This document shows, one piece after another, positions 1,760 through 33,939 of a stretch of 34,171 nt of DNA; position 1 is the stretch's first letter, and each line of letters opens with the position of its first letter. The notes below the pieces were generated by a model, which saw only the letters and a program-made list of their open reading frames with translations, searched no databases and had not been told where the DNA came from. Origin of the DNA: Deltaproteobacteria bacterium (GTDB taxonomy: Bacteria; Desulfobacterota; Desulfuromonadia; Geobacterales; Pseudopelobacteraceae); the NCBI GenBank assembly GCA_021779135.1, contig JAJYBH010000020.1:1-34171 (forward strand). Reading direction: 5' to 3'. The translations under genes and the position numbers were made by a program.

Positions 1760-2800
1760 ATGTCCTTCCGCACCATAGAATGGCGCGACGACGCTGTTAT
1801 CATGATCGACCAGACCCGTCTGCCGGGCGAGGAGATTTACAACACCTACACCGATTTCAAGGCGGTGGCGGAAGCCATCAAAGGCATGATCATCCGTGGG
1901 GCCCCGGCCATCGGCGTGGCGGCGGCCATGGGCATTGCCCTGGGTGCGCGGGACATCATCGCCGACACCCATGAGTCCTTCTTCAAACAGTTGGAGAACG
2001 TCTGCGACGTCATGGCCCGCACCCGTCCCACGGCAGTCAACCTCTTCTGGGGCATAGAACGCATGAAGCGGGTCGCCGAGGCCAATCGCGACAAAAAACT
2101 CAGCCAGATCAAAGAGATTCTCAAGAAGGAAGCCATACTCATCGAGGAAGACGACCTGACCATCTGCCGCAATATCGGCAAGTGGGGCGCCACCCTGATC
2201 CCGGAAGGTGCCACGGTCCTGACCCACTGCAATGCCGGCGGACTGGCCACGGCCGGTTACGGCACCGCCCTGGGCGTGATCCGAGCCGCCCAGGAAGCCG
2301 GCAAGGATATCCGGGTCTTCGCCGACGAGACCCGACCGTGGCTGCAGGGAGCCCGTCTGACCGCCTGGGAGCTGATGAAAGAGGGCATTCCCGTGACCTT
2401 GATCTCCGATAACATGGCCGGTTTCTTCATGAACCGGGGCGAGATCACCTGCTGCGTGGTCGGTGCCGACCGCATCGCGGCCAATGGCGACACGGCCAAC
2501 AAGATCGGCACCTATTCCGTGGCCGTACTGGCAAAGGAAAACAACATCCCCTTCTATGTGGCAGCACCCGTTTCCACCCTGGACCTGACCCTCAGTGACG
2601 GCAGCAAGATCCCCATTGAAGAACGTCCGGCCAGCGAAGTGACCCATATCAAGGGGGTTGCCATAGCTCCCGGGGGTGTCGCTGTCCGCAACCCGTCCTT
2701 CGATGTGACCCCGGCCCGCTACATCACCGCCATAATCACCGAAAACGGCATCGTCAAGGATGATTTCCAGGCGGGTCTGCGCAAGATGGCGGGTTGCTGA
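1760..2800 (+). CDS. mtnA: S-methyl-5-thioribose-1-phosphate isomerase
   Basis: A 346-residue protein that converts 5-methylthioribose-1-phosphate to 5-methylthioribulose-1-phosphate in methionine salvage (cytoplasm). Its length matches the family. Visible hallmarks are [14 protein letters not shown] near residue 50, the catalytic-cysteine segment [13 protein letters not shown] (Cys157), the [16 protein letters not shown] block, and [19 protein letters not shown] with the catalytic Asp237. The ATG at 1760 was chosen because it has an AAGGAG site 6 bases upstream and begins at the conserved MSFRTIEW N-terminus; a longer frame from 1712 adds non-conserved residues. It is followed two bases later by glnE, suggesting cotranscription. 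The eIF2B-alpha-like family also includes ribose-1,5-bisphosphate isomerases, but the residues seen favour MtnA. Confidence 0.96.
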
Positions 2801-2802
2801 CC

Positions 2803-5800
2803 ATGCATGTGGAGCGTTTTTCCCGGGATTTCCGCCGCATCATGTCTATTGAGGAAAGCGCCGGGCGAGCCGCCGAGCTGGCGGCGTTCCTCCAGAGCCA
2901 CGGCTATATTTACGGGGCACGGTCGGCGGATAATATCCTTCTGATCCAGTCGCTCTTCCCGGTTGAAACGCTGCACCGCATTGTCGTCTCCGCCTTTTTG
3001 ACCCCATCGCCGGATATGGCGCTCAACACGTTCGAGCGGCTGATAACGGTCATTCATCCGGCCGACGTGCTGGAGATCGCCCGCCACAAGAAGCGTCTCG
3101 CCCAGTTTCTTCAGGTCTGCGGTTCATCTCCCTTCCTGGTCAACCTGATCTTCAAGACACCCGACACCTTCCGCTGGCTGTTTCTGGAAGACGGCATTAA
3201 CATCAGCCGCTCAGCCGGCGATATGCTGGTCGAACTGCTTCGTCAGGCCGAGGGATCGACCGATTTCGCGGCGCTGCTCAAGACGCTGCGCTGCTTCAAG
3301 AGATCCGAGATCCTGCGTATCGCGGCCCGGGACCTGAACGGACTGGCGTCGCTGGAGGAGGTGACCGCCGAGCTCTCCAGTCTGGCGTCCGCCTCTCTGC
3401 AGGTGGCCCACGATGTCTGTCTCCAATGCCTGATCCGCGAGTGCGGCATCCCGCTGATGCGAACCGAGAGCGGACCGCGCCAGGCACGGATGACCGTGCT
3501 CGGTATGGGCAAACTGGGTGGCAATGAGCTCAATTTTTCCTCCGATATCGACATAATCTTTTTCTACGAGTCGGACAAGGGCGAAACCAGCGGCATCAGT
3601 GACGGCTCGGGCGGCATGAAAGGGTCCATCTCCCTGCATGCCTTTTTCAACAAGCTGGGCGAGATGATCAGCAAGGCCCTGTCCCTGGTGACCGAGGACG
3701 GCTTTGTGTTCCGCGTTGATGTAGGCTTGCGGCCGGAGGGCAAATCCGGCGACATGGCGATTTCGCTGCGCTCGGCCGAGGTCTACTACGAGTCGTGGGG
3801 CCAGTCCTGGGAACGGACCGCCATGCTCAAGGCCCGACCGGTGGCCGGTTCCCTGGAATTGGGTGAGCAGCTCTTGAAGATGCTGCAGCCGTTCGTGTAC
3901 CGGAAATATCTCGATTACAACCTGATCGAGGATATGAAGAACATGAAGCAGAAGATCGATGCCTCGCTGACCCGCTCCATGGAGGGTGAGACCAACCTCA
4001 AGCTGGGACGGGGCGGCATCCGCGAAATAGAGTTCTTTATCCAGGCCCTGCAACTGGTCTACGCCGGAAAGGACCCACTCCTGCGCGAGCGCAACTCGCT
4101 GAAATCATTGGATTCACTGCTGTCGGCCCGCCTGATCAGCGCCGAAGACCACCTCCGGCTTTCCGACGCCTACCGTTTCCTGCGCACGGTCGAGCACCGC
4201 ATCCAGGTTGTGCAGGAGCGGCAGACCCACAACCTGCCCACCAAGGGAGACGAAATCCTGGCGCTTTCCCGAAGGTGCGGCTTTCTGCGCCAGTACGGGC
4301 TCGAACAGTTCCGCGAGGTTCTGGAGGGGCACCGCCGCAACGTCTCGGCCATTTACGGCAACCTGTTTCTCTCCCGTGACGAGAAGCTGGAACAGGATAC
4401 GACCCCCGAGGTTCTCTTCTTTCTGGACCACAAGGCCGATGCCGACCTGGTCAAGGATATGCTGGCGGAACGGCAATTCGAGAACGTTGACCGGGCCTAC
4501 GAGAACCTGCTCTCGCTGAGAAACGGGCCGGTCAGGGCCAATCTGACCGAACGCAGCCGCAGGCTTCTCGAAAAGATATCTCCCCTGCTGTTGCAGGAGA
4601 TCTTCGAATCTCCCGATCCGGACATGGCGCTGGCCAACCTGGAACGCTTCCTGACCATGATCGGTACCCGCTCCTCCTACTACGCCCTGCTGGCAGAGAA
4701 TCGGGAGACTCTCCGGCTGCTGGTGTCGCTGTTCGGCATGTCCGAATTCCTCTCCAAGATCCTGATCAACCACCCGGAGCTGCTGGACAGCCTGGTGGCC
4801 CGTGGTGATACCTCCGCCATAAAGCCCAGGGAGACCATGCTTTCGGACCTGGATTACCTGCTGGAACAGAGCGACTACTTCGAGGAGCAGCTCGATGTCC
4901 TGCGTCGCTACCGCAATGAGGAATTCCTGCGCATCGGACTGAATGACATTCACGGGCGGCTGGGGCAGAGCGAAGTTACCTCGCAGCTGAGCCTGCTGGG
5001 TGAGGCCTGTCTTGAGGCGGCCTTTGGGCTGGCCGTGGGTGAGTTGAAGCGCTTCGGCAAACCGATGTACCGTTCCGAGGGGAGTGACCGGCAGGCAGGC
5101 ATGGCGGTCATCGCCATGGGCAAGCTGGGTGGCGGGGATCTCAATTACCACTCCGACCTGGACATAATCTTCGTCTATGACCACCAGGGCACTACGGATG
5201 GCGACAGACAGATCACTAACCATGAGTATTTCGCCAAACTGGCCCAGAAAGTCATCTCCATCCTCAGCCTGCAGACCCGCGAGGGGTATGTCTACAAGAT
5301 CGACACCCGTCTGCGCCCCTCGGGAAACGCCGGCCCGCTGGTCACCTCGCTGGACTCGTTTCTCGAATATCACCGCAAGGAGGCCCAGGTCTGGGAGCGG
5401 CAGGCGCTAACCAAGGCCCGCGTTGTGCTGGGCGACCAAAAGCTGGCCAGTCTTCTGGATGATGTCGTTCGCCAGACCGTCTATGGCGCCTCCATCGATG
5501 ACGATGGGCGCCGGGAGATCCACCGCCTGCGCATGCGCATGGAAAACGAACTGGCCAAGGAAACCGCCGACACCTACAACATCAAGACCGGCCGGGGCGG
5601 CATGGTGGATGTGGAATTCGCCGTACAATACCTGCTGCTCAAATATGGCTGCCGCTATCCGGAACTGCGCAGCGTCAGCACCATCGTGGCGCTCAAGGAG
5701 ATCCGCTCCCTGGGCCTCCTCAAGGAGGGGGACGCCGAAACGCTGCTGAACGGCTACAAGTTCCTGCGCAAACTGGAAAACCGCCTGCGCATCATCCATG

Positions 5801-5976
5801 ATTATTCGGTAAACGATCTGAGTGGTCCCAAGGGCTACATCAACAAACTTGCCCGCAGGCTGGGCTATGATCCGAAACTGAAAAATCCGGGCGCGAGCCT
5901 GATCAGCGATTACGAGGAGACAACCGGCAGGATCCGCGACTGTTATGACCGGATCCTGGGAGAGGGGACAGCATGA
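2803..5976 (+). CDS. glnE: Bifunctional glutamine synthetase adenylyltransferase/adenylyl-removing enzyme
   Basis: A 1057-residue protein that adenylylates and deadenylylates glutamine synthetase in response to PII and nitrogen status. It has the diagnostic duplicated nucleotidyltransferase architecture: an N-terminal adenylyl-removase domain with GMGKLGGNELNFSSDIDIIF (Asp248 and Asp250) and a C-terminal adenylyl-transferase domain with AMGKLGGGDLNYHSDLDIIF (Asp785 and Asp787). Each is followed by helical regions with GRGGIREIEF and GRGGMVDVEF, the conserved GlnE-type motifs. At 1057 residues it is somewhat longer than the 946-residue E. coli enzyme. The ATG at 2803 is two bases after the mtnA stop; a TTG at 2794 is also in frame. 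The 3' end overlaps the next gene by four bases (ATGA). Confidence 0.96.
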   Translation: MHVERFSRDFRRIMSIEESAGRAAELAAFLQSHGYIYGARSADNILLIQSLFPVETLHRIVVSAFLTPSPDMALNTFERLITVIHPADVLEIARHKKRLAQFLQVCGSSPFLVNLIFKTPDTFRWLFLEDGINISRSAGDMLVELLRQAEGSTDFAALLKTLRCFKRSEILRIAARDLNGLASLEEVTAELSSLASASLQVAHDVCLQCLIRECGIPLMRTESGPRQARMTVLGMGKLGGNELNFSSDIDIIFFYESDKGETSGISDGSGGMKGSISLHAFFNKLGEMISKALSLVTEDGFVFRVDVGLRPEGKSGDMAISLRSAEVYYESWGQSWERTAMLKARPVAGSLELGEQLLKMLQPFVYRKYLDYNLIEDMKNMKQKIDASLTRSMEGETNLKLGRGGIREIEFFIQALQLVYAGKDPLLRERNSLKSLDSLLSARLISAEDHLRLSDAYRFLRTVEHRIQVVQERQTHNLPTKGDEILALSRRCGFLRQYGLEQFREVLEGHRRNVSAIYGNLFLSRDEKLEQDTTPEVLFFLDHKADADLVKDMLAERQFENVDRAYENLLSLRNGPVRANLTERSRRLLEKISPLLLQEIFESPDPDMALANLERFLTMIGTRSSYYALLAENRETLRLLVSLFGMSEFLSKILINHPELLDSLVARGDTSAIKPRETMLSDLDYLLEQSDYFEEQLDVLRRYRNEEFLRIGLNDIHGRLGQSEVTSQLSLLGEACLEAAFGLAVGELKRFGKPMYRSEGSDRQAGMAVIAMGKLGGGDLNYHSDLDIIFVYDHQGTTDGDRQITNHEYFAKLAQKVISILSLQTREGYVYKIDTRLRPSGNAGPLVTSLDSFLEYHRKEAQVWERQALTKARVVLGDQKLASLLDDVVRQTVYGASIDDDGRREIHRLRMRMENELAKETADTYNIKTGRGGMVDVEFAVQYLLLKYGCRYPELRSVSTIVALKEIRSLGLLKEGDAETLLNGYKFLRKLENRLRIIHDYSVNDLSGPKGYINKLARRLGYDPKLKNPGASLISDYEETTGRIRDCYDRILGEGTA

Positions 5977-6221
5977 ATATCCGCAAGAAGTTTCTCGACT
6001 ACGAGTACGAAGAGGTTCTGGATACGAAGACCCGCGAACTGATCCGGGTCGGCTGCGCCATTGCAGTGGGATGCCCCACCTGACTGAAGAAACACTTCGC
6101 GGTCGCGAAGGAAGCGGGGGCAACCAGGGAGGAACTGCGCGAGGCGATCGCCTACGGCATCATCGCCCCGTCAGGCAGGGCCAAGAACTTTGCCCTGGGG
6201 ATGCTGGAAGAGGTGGAGTAA
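5973..6221 (+). CDS. AhpD/carboxymuconolactone decarboxylase-like selenoprotein (CPTU active site; in-frame UGA)
   Basis: An 82-residue protein whose codon 37 is TGA (6081-6083), read here as selenocysteine. The reading frame continues with strong family character on both sides of the TGA: VGCAIAVGCPT before, and LKKHFAVAKEAGATREELRE then AIAYGIIAPSG after, ending at TAA 6219-6221. The Cys34-Pro-Thr-Sec37 motif and His41 four residues later copy the CxxC...H arrangement of AhpD-type thiol peroxidase/disulfide reductases, with Sec replacing the second Cys. The ATG overlaps the glnE stop (ATGA) and has AGAGGGGA just upstream. A SECIS-like hairpin directly follows the UGA. Inferred role: peroxide or disulfide redox chemistry in the cytoplasm. 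AhpD-like selenoproteins have been reported in deltaproteobacteria from computational surveys (recalled, not checked). The alternative, a nonsense-mutated gene, is unlikely given the hairpin. Confidence 0.9.
6081..6110 (+). promoter_or_regulatory. Bacterial SECIS element directing UGA to selenocysteine
   Basis: The UGA at 6081-6083 is followed by exactly 11 bases and then a perfect 6-bp stem, CTTCGC (6095-6100) with GCGAAG (6105-6110), closing a GGTC tetraloop (6101-6104). The E. coli fdhF SECIS, as I recall it, also has 11 bases between UGA and the apical stem and a GGUC apical loop contacted by SelB. The spacing and loop therefore match the best-known bacterial SECIS, while the stem sequence differs and also encodes conserved protein residues. 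Confidence 0.88.
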
Positions 6222-6244: not shown

Positions 6245-7042
6245 TCAGCTGTCAGCTGTGGCAGGATCGTCGATCAGGAGGATCTGGCTCAGGGCGTCGT
6301 CGATCTTGCCCACGTCAACGGTGGTGTTGAAGCAGGGACCGAAGGGACGGTCGTTGAGGATGCCGATCACCGGCAGCGGGTAGCAGTCCTTGATGCCGGA
6401 GGTGAGATCGCGCTCGCAGGCCACGGCCAGCACCAGCTTGGGGCGCTTTTCCACGATGACCTTGCGGGCCAGGGTGCCGCCGGTGGCAACGGAGATATCG
6501 ATATGGTATTTGCGGCTGATCTCCACAAGCCCCTTGATGTCGCAGCGGCCGCACAGCACGCATTTGTTGATATCCCCGGTGACCTTGATCTCGCAGTCAA
6601 ACAACTGGATGCAGTGCGGCAGCAGCACCAGGATGCGGTCCGGGCTGATCTTTTGCCGCTGGGAAATCACCAGGCTGTTGTTCATGGCGATAAACGACTG
6701 GCGGATGCCGTCCTTGTCAATACCCAGCATGCGACCGACGAACTCGATCACCGGCAGCAGGAACTTGATCACCACCAGCCGCATGAAGCGGGTGAAGAAG
6801 ATGTCCTTGCCCAGGGCGGTGGTCAATACCAGCAGGCCGGTACCCAGGATGGCGACCCCGGACAGCACCGCCACGGCAATGCCGACAATGTGCGGCAGAT
6901 TGGGGTGGATGTTGGCCAGGCCACGGTTGGGAACCCACCAGATCAGAAAAATCAGTCCCACCAGGATCAGGCAGGTGAGCCCCATGAGTGAGATGAACAG
7001 CCGCTTGCGCGGCGGCGCGATTTTTTCTTCGGCAGCGGTCAT
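6245..7042 (-). CDS. DUF116 membrane protein
   Basis: A 265-residue protein matching the DUF116 family. Two hydrophobic segments (about residues 14-36 and 45-75) are followed by a soluble domain with a cysteine cluster: LPHCIQLFDC, then NKCVLCGRCDIKGL, then VACERDLTSGIKDCYPLPVIG. The Cys spacing looks able to bind metal or an Fe-S cluster. The function is not established. It is the last gene of the def-fmt operon: its ATG overlaps the fmt stop by four bases, so it is almost certainly cotranslated with the formylation/deformylation genes. A role connected with protein N-terminal processing is only an inference from that linkage. Confidence 0.85.
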   Translation of the reverse strand: MTAAEEKIAPPRKRLFISLMGLTCLILVGLIFLIWWVPNRGLANIHPNLPHIVGIAVAVLSGVAILGTGLLVLTTALGKDIFFTRFMRLVVIKFLLPVIEFVGRMLGIDKDGIRQSFIAMNNSLVISQRQKISPDRILVLLPHCIQLFDCEIKVTGDINKCVLCGRCDIKGLVEISRKYHIDISVATGGTLARKVIVEKRPKLVLAVACERDLTSGIKDCYPLPVIGILNDRPFGPCFNTTVDVGKIDDALSQILLIDDPATADS

Positions 7043-30603: not shown

Positions 30604-32208
30604 ATGCAACAAGCGGGAACGGCATATACACCGGCTGATATCAAAAGCCTGCACCTGAAGGGTGCGATGTATATCCGCATGTCCACAGAGTTGCAGGTGG
30701 AGTCGCCGGAAAATCAGGAACGGGCAATACGAACCTATGCCGCTGAATACGGCATTGAAATCGTCAAGACCTATGCCGATCTGGGTGTCAGCGGGATCAA
30801 CACGGAAAAGCGGGAACAGTTTCAGACCTTGATTGATGATGTGGAACAGGGTCGGAACGGATACAACATTGTCCTGTACCTGGATGAAAGTCGCTGGGGA
30901 CGGTTTGTAGACAGCCGCGAGGCTGAGTATCACCGGATGAGGCTGGAACGCAGAAACGTCGTGTGCCAGTCCTGCGAAAAGCCGGTGACGTTGACCAGCA
31001 ACCTTGCCGACAGGATTATGACCCTGCTGCGGGACGAAAGTGCCAGCGACTATTGCCGCCAGCTCTCTCAGAAAGTATGGGCGGGACAATGCAATCTGGT
31101 ATCAAAAGGATACCGGCAGGGAGGTGTGGCGGGGTTCGGGCTGCGGCGTATGTTGTTGGACGAGGCAGGTAGACCCAAGCAGGAACTGGCGATGGGGCAG
31201 CGGAAAAGCCTGCTCACCGAGCGGGTGATTCTGATGCCGGGGTCAGACGAGGATTGTCGGATTGTGCTCTGGATTTATGACCAGTTCATTGCCGGGACGA
31301 GTGAAACTGACATTGCGGCGCTGCTGAACGCACAAGGGGTGAAAACCCATTTTGACCGCCCATGGTCACGAGGGACCGTGTGCGAGGTGCTGACCAATGA
31401 AAAATATGTCGGCAACAATTTATTCAACCGCACATCGGGCAAGATGAAGAGCAGAGCCAAACCGAATCCGGAAAACGAGTGGGTCCGCAAGGATCGCGCC
31501 TTTGAGCCCGTAGTGGACATGGAGCGATTCTGGATTGTGCAGGGGATTTACCGGGAGCGGAACAAAAAGACCACCGACGAAGAGCTGCTGCAGGGGCTAC
31601 GGGATTTGTACGCCAAGCAAGGGCGCCTTTCCGCGCTGATAATTGACGAAGCTGATTTTTTACCTCCCTGCAGTCTGATCCGCAATCGTTTCGGCGGACT
31701 GCTGCGAGTCTACCAGATGATCGGCTATACCCCGAAGCGCGACTATCAGTATGTTGCCATCAACCAGCGCTTGCGCGCCCTTCATGCCGAGATCGTGGCC
31801 GATGTCGTTCGTGATATTGAAAGCCTCTGCGGAAGGAAGATTCCCATGGACAAGGAAAGCTGCCTGCTGGAATTGAATCACAATCTCTTCATTTCAGTCG
31901 TTATCAGCCGCTGTTTCACTACCCCAGCCGGAATCCGGCGCTGGAAAATCCGTTTCGACAGCGGACTGCGTCCTGACGTAACCGTAGCGGTACGCATGGA
32001 TATCCATAATGAAGCGATCCAGGACTATTACATCCTGCCCGCGCTGGAATTTTCTGATGGGCAGTTGAAGCTGTCGGAGGAGAACGCAGGATTTCTTGAC
32101 GGCTTTCGTACCGACACTCTGGATTACTTGCTGAAGCTGAGCATCAACATCTCTCTCGACAAGGCGGTGGAACATGGAGCATGGGGCCGTAGCGCTTATT
32201 CCTATTGA
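30604..32208 (+). CDS. Large serine recombinase
   Basis: A 534-residue resolvase/invertase-superfamily protein. The catalytic domain begins GAMYIRMSTELQVES, with Ser27 the likely nucleophile, and continues with YADLGVSGIN and LDESRWGRFVD (catalytic arginines). A Recombinase domain follows (GGVAGFGLRRM, then WSRGTVCEVLTNEKYVGNNLFNR). The C-terminal ~220 residues differ from phage-type zinc-ribbon recombinases: TDEELLQGLRDLYAKQGRLS and SLIRNRFGGLLRVYQMIGYTP resemble helical DNA-binding repeats found in homing-nuclease-associated and related recombinase families. AAGGAG lies at 30588-30593; a second in-frame ATG at 30667 also has a ribosome site. Its 3' end overlaps the ParB-like gene by 35 bases. 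Likely the DNA-rearranging enzyme of the mobile element. Confidence 0.92.
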   Translation: MQQAGTAYTPADIKSLHLKGAMYIRMSTELQVESPENQERAIRTYAAEYGIEIVKTYADLGVSGINTEKREQFQTLIDDVEQGRNGYNIVLYLDESRWGRFVDSREAEYHRMRLERRNVVCQSCEKPVTLTSNLADRIMTLLRDESASDYCRQLSQKVWAGQCNLVSKGYRQGGVAGFGLRRMLLDEAGRPKQELAMGQRKSLLTERVILMPGSDEDCRIVLWIYDQFIAGTSETDIAALLNAQGVKTHFDRPWSRGTVCEVLTNEKYVGNNLFNRTSGKMKSRAKPNPENEWVRKDRAFEPVVDMERFWIVQGIYRERNKKTTDEELLQGLRDLYAKQGRLSALIIDEADFLPPCSLIRNRFGGLLRVYQMIGYTPKRDYQYVAINQRLRALHAEIVADVVRDIESLCGRKIPMDKESCLLELNHNLFISVVISRCFTTPAGIRRWKIRFDSGLRPDVTVAVRMDIHNEAIQDYYILPALEFSDGQLKLSEENAGFLDGFRTDTLDYLLKLSINISLDKAVEHGAWGRSAYSY

Positions 32209-33040
32209 AGATATTCACATCCTGAACCCACGGGTGCGTAATCAGATCATTGCCGAAGAAATACGGCAAAACATTCGGAGCGTCGGCCTGAAAAGGCCCA
32301 TAACGGTCGCTCCCAGGAAAGACGCAAAAAATGGCAAGAAGTATGACCTGGTGTGCGGCCAGGGGAGGATTGAAGCCTTCATTGCAGCCGGGGTGACTGA
32401 AATCCCCGCAATCGTTCGCGAGGTTAGTGAAGAAGATGCGCATCTTATGAGCCTGGTGGAAAATATCGCCAGGCGCAACAGCAGTGCCCTGGAACTTCTG
32501 CAAAGCATCAAGTATCTGAAAGGCCAGGGGTACGCGGACGATGCCATCGCTGCCAAGACCAATCTTGGCAAAGACTATATTCGGGGCATCATCCGTCTGC
32601 TCGAAGATGGTGAGGAATACCTGGTCAACGCCGTAGAAAAGGGGCGAATCCCTTTATACCAGGCGCTGAACATAGCTGCGGAAGATGACGCCGCCGTACA
32701 AACGGCCTTGACGGAAGCGTATGAATCGGGGGCGTTGACCGGGAAGAAGCTGGTCGTTTTGCAGAAAATCATCTCCCGGCGCAAACACTACGGCAAAGGA
32801 CTTTCAGCTCCACACCGTGATAATGCCAAAGTCTCGGCAGAAGATCTGATCGCAGCCTATGAAAATGGAGCCAGAGAAAAGAAACGGCTGCTGGCTCAGT
32901 CGAACTATATCAAGGATGTATTGGATTACACAGCCGTGGCTTTGCGCCAGTTATTGAACGATGTCCATTTCACCAATCAGCTGAAGGCCGTTGGCATGTA
33001 TGAAATACCTCTGCATGTAACGGATCTTCTGAAAAGGTAG
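32174..33040 (+). CDS. ParB/Spo0J-family protein
   Basis: A 288-residue protein with an N-terminal ParB-like domain (IPIEDIHILNPR, IRSVGLKRPITVAP, VCGQGRIEAFIAAGVTEIPA and SLVENIARRN), the region that in ParB binds CTP and clamps DNA. A helix-turn-helix region follows (YADDAIAAKTNLGKDYIRGI). The C-terminal third is helical with many Lys/Arg residues. It starts within the recombinase gene and is followed five bases later by a second ParB-like gene. In this context it may act as a DNA-binding or synapsis factor for recombination rather than in chromosome partition; no ParA-type ATPase is encoded nearby. Confidence 0.88.
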   Translation: MEHGAVALIPIEDIHILNPRVRNQIIAEEIRQNIRSVGLKRPITVAPRKDAKNGKKYDLVCGQGRIEAFIAAGVTEIPAIVREVSEEDAHLMSLVENIARRNSSALELLQSIKYLKGQGYADDAIAAKTNLGKDYIRGIIRLLEDGEEYLVNAVEKGRIPLYQALNIAAEDDAAVQTALTEAYESGALTGKKLVVLQKIISRRKHYGKGLSAPHRDNAKVSAEDLIAAYENGAREKKRLLAQSNYIKDVLDYTAVALRQLLNDVHFTNQLKAVGMYEIPLHVTDLLKR

Positions 33041-33045
33041 CGGCC

Positions 33046-33939
33046 ATGGCGAACATAATAAAGCAGGGGTTCCAGGAAAAACTGATCGAACTTGCCGTGG
33101 AGGAGTTGCTCCCCACCAAAAGCATTTCCATCTGTGCCAGGAAATGCAGAAAGTATGCTCAGGTCCTTTCCTCAATTCGGGAAGTGGGCCTTATCGAAGC
33201 TCCTGTGGTCGCACCGTTAAAAAAAGGAAAAGGATATCTCTTGCTCGATGGCCATCTGCGGATCATGGCCTTGAAGGAATTGGGAGTGGAGCGCGTCTTC
33301 TGTCTGATCTCCACCGACGACGAGACCTATACCTACAACAAATACATCAATCGGCTTTCAGCAATTCAGGAACATCGAATGATCGTGAAGGCAGTTCAGT
33401 CAGGAGTCTCTGAAGAAAAGCTCGCCCGTGTATTGAATCTTGACATCGGAACAATCAGAAATAAGAAAAATTTGCTTGAAGGTATTTGTCCGGAGGCTGT
33501 CGAACTCCTGAAGGATAAGGCCGTGCCGGAACCGGTTTTCAGGGTATTGAGAAAAATGAAGGCGCCCCGTCAGATTAACGCTGCCATGCTGATGAATGAC
33601 CAGAACAAATTCAACTGCAACTATGCCAAGGCCCTTTTGGATGCAACGCCGGTGAATCAGCTCGTCAACAAAGGCAAACCGAAAAAGGATACTCCGGCAA
33701 TACTGGCCCGCCAGGCTCGTCTTGAGGAAGAGAGTCTTGCCCTGTCCACGGAAATAGGCTCATTGAAGGAGCAGTATGGTACAGCCATGATAGACATGAC
33801 TTCTATGCAGGCATATTTGAAAAGTTTGCTTGGCAACGAAGCGGTTGCAAAATATCTGCGTGAATTACATGGGCCAACTTATGACAAATTCAAGCATATC
33901 GCTGAGCTTGACTTTTTCAGGCTGAAAAATATGGAGTGA
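33046..33939 (+). CDS. ParB-like protein with RepB C-terminal-type domain
   Basis: A 297-residue protein with a degenerate ParB N-terminal domain (SSIREVGLIEAPVVAP, LLLDGHLRIMALKELGVERV and NRLSAIQEHRMI) and an HTH-like segment (SEEKLARVLNLDIGTIRNKK). Its C-terminal half (from about residue 170) fits proteins annotated as plasmid partitioning RepB C-terminal-type. The ATG follows AAAAGG. It differs from the preceding ParB in box sequences, so the two could form a heteromeric pair. No plasmid origin or ParA is seen. Confidence 0.85.
   Translation: MANIIKQGFQEKLIELAVEELLPTKSISICARKCRKYAQVLSSIREVGLIEAPVVAPLKKGKGYLLLDGHLRIMALKELGVERVFCLISTDDETYTYNKYINRLSAIQEHRMIVKAVQSGVSEEKLARVLNLDIGTIRNKKNLLEGICPEAVELLKDKAVPEPVFRVLRKMKAPRQINAAMLMNDQNKFNCNYAKALLDATPVNQLVNKGKPKKDTPAILARQARLEEESLALSTEIGSLKEQYGTAMIDMTSMQAYLKSLLGNEAVAKYLRELHGPTYDKFKHIAELDFFRLKNME

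Follow-up and report, generated by a model that had tools for sequence, protein, structure and literature searches.

An AhpD-like selenoprotein gene of the GSU3128 family and its SECIS hairpin next to glnE in a member of the Pseudopelobacteraceae

The gene described here lies on a contig of a Deltaproteobacteria bacterium of the Pseudopelobacteraceae (assembly GCA_021779135.1, contig JAJYBH010000020.1). We analysed a stretch of 34,171 nucleotides, referred to as the window. At the 3′ end of glnE, a short reading frame opens with an ATG, closes with a TAA and contains a single in-frame TGA at codon 37 (Table 1). Its start overlaps the glnE stop as ATGA (5973-5976). With the TGA read as selenocysteine (Sec), the product is MNIRKKFLDYEYEEVLDTKTRELIRVGCAIAVGCPTULKKHFAVAKEAGATREELREAIAYGIIAPSGRAKNFALGMLEEVE, in which Cys34-Pro-Thr-Sec37 forms a redox motif and His41 stands four residues past the UGA. 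An earlier note on this DNA had claimed the in-frame UGA at 6081, the CPTU motif, the histidine at +4, a hairpin at 11 nt and the overlap with the glnE stop; all of these are present, at exactly the positions it gave.

Table 1. Features of the selenoprotein locus (positions in the window).
Feature	Coordinates	Strand	Details
GSU3128-family (NF041047) selenoprotein gene	5973..6221	+	82 aa, one Sec
UGA codon, with near certainty selenocysteine (residue 37)	6081..6083	+	TGA in 89/89 distinct orthologues and 137/137 class matches above cut-off
SECIS hairpin (predicted)	6095..6110	+	in 89 sequences: near-absence of synonymous variation, constant pairing, coupled synonymous changes
Active-site segment (predicted)	6072..6095	+	Cys34 (6072-6074), Sec37, His41 (6093-6095)
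Glu22	6036-6038	+	invariant in alignment A1
Likely ribosome-binding site, GAGAGGGG	5960..5967	+	within the glnE 3′ end; inferred from sequence
glnE, glutamine synthetase adenylyltransferase	2794..5976	+	NF008292, 779 bits; neighbour, no part in the mechanism

Profile searches place the product in a defined family. The Pfam domain CMD (PF02627) spans the UGA, covering residues 7-80 (E 1.1e-15, 57.8 bits against a cut-off of 23). The NCBIfam equivalog model NF041047, ‘GSU3128 family (seleno)protein’, scores 152.7 bits (cut-off 110), with residues 1-81 aligned to profile positions 1-82, and this gene is the only one in its genome above that cut-off. The AhpD core (TIGR00778) is also matched (40.8 bits, cut-off 27.8), and AhpD proper (TIGR00777) reaches 15.6 bits where its subfamily cut-off is 191.95. 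By these scores the product is AhpD-like, not AhpD. Since NF041047 has 84 positions, 82 residues are the usual size for this family, and the small size that had been thought notable is ordinary. The window copy has its whole length, CxxU motif, Sec position and lineage in common with NF041047, the ‘distant AhpD homolog’ of the literature; we see no difference of substance, and the copy is an orthologue.

Under Table 11 the UGA is a stop, and the assembly yielded no selC (discussed below). Both points would fit a true stop followed by a decayed remnant or a chance frame. Against this, the NF041047 profile scores across the UGA, and the codon is fixed among relatives. In particular, 79 loci were found among genome contigs, 69 of which are orthologues from Geobacter and its relatives, and every one of the 69 has TGA at codon 37. 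A class-wide search contributed 30 more loci, giving 89 distinct orthologous sequences; all have TGA at residue 37 (Cys in 0/89), and the codons on both sides of the UGA are conserved. We give a true stop practically no credence: it was already refuted because the protein downstream, whose conservation the earlier note had made decisive, is conserved in all orthologues.

The wider searches extend this pattern. The family is present in 136 of the 277 genomes of the class, and all 137 class matches above the cut-off contain the TGA (Cys form, 0/137). The sole class match without it is an incomplete one that stops at profile position 32, ahead of the Sec site. Among the weaker matches outside the class in the phylum sample are five that contain TGA and two that have no stop. 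A Cys form above the family cut-off was sought in both class and phylum, and none was found. The expected alternation of Cys and Sec at residue 37 is hence unseen within the family, which is Sec only, and Cys occupies this position only in distant CMD/AhpD relatives (in most of them). On this comparison of sequences, the UGA at codon 37 has been conserved in a sense role, and Sec is almost certainly inserted there.

Downstream of the TGA, an 11-nt spacer, CTGAAGAAACA (6084-6094), leads into CTTCGC-GGTC-GCGAAG, that is, a 6-bp stem (6095-6100 with 6105-6110) closing a GGTC loop (6101-6104). The UGA-to-loop distance is 17 nt, and loop positions 1 and 2 are both G. The bSECIS model has a UGA-to-loop distance of 16-37 nt and includes a pair across the loop, in the pattern N1-G[G/U]-N-N2 (PMC13188914). 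The SECIS of E. coli fdhF has the 11-nt spacing, the GGUC apical loop and this loop pairing in common with the window hairpin (PMC13188914, PMC8659212), but it contains a bulged U17 (PMC8659212), whereas the stem in the window is an uninterrupted 6 bp without a bulge. The earlier note had likened the hairpin to the classical fdhF element in spacing and loop; both agree, and the one qualification is the bulge.

In folding energy, the hairpin region is unexceptional (z = -0.30), so the case for a SECIS rests on comparison. An Rfam search of the window gave no matches. Over the 89 sequences, the synonymous entropy of the hairpin codons (41-46) averages 0.18 bits, compared to 1.28 bits for the other 71 scored codons, and no other run of six codons in the gene is so low. 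The loci were picked by their protein letters only, so that the synonymous silence of the hairpin has to be explained by the RNA. None of the 89 sequences breaks any of the six stem pairs. For the outermost pair, 86 sequences have C-G and three have U-A, CAC/AAG having jointly become CAT/AAA in these three. The first and fourth bases of the loop are able to pair in all 89 (82 G-C, four C-G and one each of A-U, U-G and G-U), where shuffling predicts 78.6; none of 200,000 shuffles reached 89, in a test that ignores kinship. Two pairs of the hairpin thus show paired synonymous changes. Judged from these patterns, an RNA hairpin 11 nt past the UGA is under selection, and the proposal of an AhpD-like selenoprotein with a CxxU active site and a SECIS is supported by comparison. 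Weaker family relatives with an in-frame TGA also occur outside the class (loci L157-L160 and genome G512). Of the four outside-class loci read, three carry CTTCGC-N4-GCGAAG hairpins in which N4 is GGGC or GGCC; L159 has GGCG.

One genus, apparently Trichlorobacter (here g2), retains the UGA in its GSU3128-family gene and has a different hairpin arrangement. Its 11 sequences (loci L178, L179-L186, L130 and L140) are closely related. In all 11, the loop of the ancestral hairpin reads CCTG, CTTG or TCTG and has lost the loop G, and in four the ancestral stem is broken. At synonymous sites, the 11 sequences do not differ anywhere in codons 49-55 (longest silent run 7, permutation P 0.002). These codons lie in a second 6-bp hairpin, CGGCGC-CG[G/U]GA-GCGCCG, about 21 nt downstream of the ancestral one; this second hairpin has a folding energy of about -11.7 kcal/mol, compared to a mean of -2.9 for the equivalent region of other members. 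Its loop begins about 38 nt past the UGA, slightly outside the usual range of 16-37 nt. The context of the selD UGA in g2 genomes is similar to that in other genera, and the g2 genomes in our relatives search carry tRNA-Sec. It is possible, if somewhat short of probable, that this genus replaced its SECIS while retaining the same Sec codon. Because the 11 sequences are closely related, we treat the turnover as a hypothesis. The observation itself looks fresh.

Sec insertion depends on machinery that can be sought in the host genome (3.43 Mb in 221 contigs, 98% complete). The genes selA (606.8 bits), selB (373 bits) and selD (368.1 bits) are all present above cut-off, and selD has one in-frame TGA of its own. 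The tRNA-Sec gene, selC, was not found in this assembly: the candidates examined are tRNAs for Ser, Leu, Arg and Gly, and a query with the G002 selC gave no real counterpart. The search for sel genes proposed earlier is thus borne out for selA, selB and selD; selC is missing from this assembly and present in congeners. Among the 39 genomes of the relatives search, which include the host, 35 have a tRNA-Sec above cut-off. All three congeners carry selC, with the TCA anticodon confirmed by ARAGORN. In congener G003 it adjoins selB, and the corresponding site of the host genome is closed up (selB locus L081, about 1484-1490, versus L108, 4631-4988). In G001 and G002 it has other surroundings, and in G002 it adjoins an integrase-like gene (named by eye). 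The location of selC seems to shift among members of a single genus.

From the absence of tRNA-Sec in 3.43 Mb and the closed-up site next to selB, one could argue that this strain lost selC and makes no Sec, leaving the gene to near-cognate suppression or gradual loss. We consider this very improbable, given that selA, selB, selD and the UGA of selD are intact and that 3/3 congeners retain selC, at differing places. Since the assembly is in 221 contigs, the absence likely reflects an assembly gap at a movable locus.

The neighbourhood had been taken to tie the protein to nitrogen regulation and methionine salvage, in a notable operon placement. In support, the gene overlaps the glnE stop, and 19 of the 69 loci have glnE upstream, preceded in most by mtnA where the contig extends far enough. 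However, glnE and the selenoprotein gene are separated by varying distances, the overlap of start and stop is seen only in the window among the 69 loci, and other lineages have unrelated neighbours (by eye, a MATE-like transporter in several). We therefore find the link unsupported and reject the idea of a glnE/mtnA operon, as the context is unconserved; a joint role with GlnE in nitrogen regulation, or a part in methionine salvage, is most unlikely for the protein. In glnE-type loci, the gene at 6245-7042 in the window, fmt and def usually lie downstream. The 6245-7042 gene (minus strand) encodes a 265-aa protein with hydrophobic N-terminal segments; it has no NCBIfam match at 1e-10, and proteins about 85-90% identical to it lie beside fmt and def in relatives. 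Further along the window (30604-33939, plus strand), a run of three ORFs, by eye serine-recombinase-like and then two ParB/RepB-like, suggests a mobile element.

The AlphaFold2 model of the protein (28 sequences; pLDDT 95.8, pTM 0.85) has a short beta hairpin followed by four helices. Foldseek matches it to the CMD/AhpD proteins 5dik, 1vke, 1p8c, 3bey, 2af7 and 7y4r with a probability of 1.00, although the E-values are weak (3.5e-3 at best), as the chain has only 82 residues, and sequence searches likewise group it with CMD/AhpD proteins. In alignment A1, Glu22 and His41 are invariant and Cys34 is nearly so. The relay of Mycobacterium tuberculosis AhpD consists of Glu118, Cys130, His132, Cys133 and His137 (PMC3141380). 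Glu22, Cys34, Sec37 and His41 are spaced like Glu118, Cys130, Cys133 and His137, so that the redox pair, the spacing of the proton-relay Glu and His and the fold are common to both. The window protein differs in having Sec where AhpD has its second Cys, 82 rather than about 175 residues, and Thr36 at the position of His132.

Other relatives resemble the window protein in part. The small Cys-containing CMD/AhpD-like proteins RclX (7y4r), lpg0406 (5dik) and TTHA0727 (2cwq) have the fold and core sequence in common with it; their chains are 20-40 residues longer, and the matched sequences, as shown or aligned, have Cys and no Sec. ArsM_AhpD_UU (NF041537), MduS (NF045649) and the ocean-survey AhpD-like 1 and 2 also have CxxU in an AhpD/CMD domain, but they are methyltransferase-domain fusions or other subfamilies, unlike the window protein. 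The Pfam name would make the protein a carboxymuconolactone decarboxylase, as the CMD match allows. This is highly improbable: the model for PcaC, the gamma-carboxymuconolactone decarboxylase (TIGR02425), scores 21.9 bits against an equivalog cut-off of 155.7, and the family has CxxU together with Glu and His, whereas gamma-CMD enzymes proper are without the CxxC relay (PMC3141380).

Along the established bacterial pathway, SelB with Sec-tRNA(Sec) would bind the hairpin and insert selenocysteine, giving a mostly helical product of 82 residues with the CMD/AhpD fold and a Cys34-Pro-Thr-Sec37 redox pair. The AhpD proton relay suggests, by analogy, that Glu22 and His41 activate the Sec selenolate, which would attack a peroxide or disulfide. 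Cys34, as the resolving residue, would then close a selenenyl-sulfide bond, to be reduced by a cellular thiol donor. With AhpD-type chemistry of this kind, the protein would most likely reduce peroxides or disulfides as an enzyme, or serve as an AhpD-like adaptor. A role in thiol/peroxide redox chemistry is, on this analogy, probable. We hold the explanation as a whole, that is, a Sec protein of the GSU3128 family with an AhpD-like redox mechanism and an unspecified substrate, with high confidence.

The family has a history. A predicted selenoprotein of G. sulfurreducens was described as resembling 4-carboxymuconolactone decarboxylase (PMC1242214), and a ‘distant AhpD homolog’ appears in a list of selenoproteins from G. 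sulfurreducens and G. uraniumreducens (PMC1794560). A 2026 review tabulates ‘Distant alkylhydroperoxidase (AhpD) homolog, NF041047, CxxU’, with a citation to work from 2006 (PMC13188914). The Sec form was reported for Geobacter in 2005-2006. As both the family and its Sec are already catalogued in these papers, reading the gene as an AhpD-like CxxU selenoprotein is correct but already known. A literature search for ‘GSU3128’ found no paper and no experiment on a family member.

The analysis confirms as a full selenoprotein a gene that is easily annotated as a 36-aa fragment. In the 89-sequence set, a bacterial SECIS can be recognised by synonymous-site silence and paired changes where folding energy is uninformative. 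Finally, the exception in genus g2 could illustrate the route by which one SECIS gives way to another with Sec retained.
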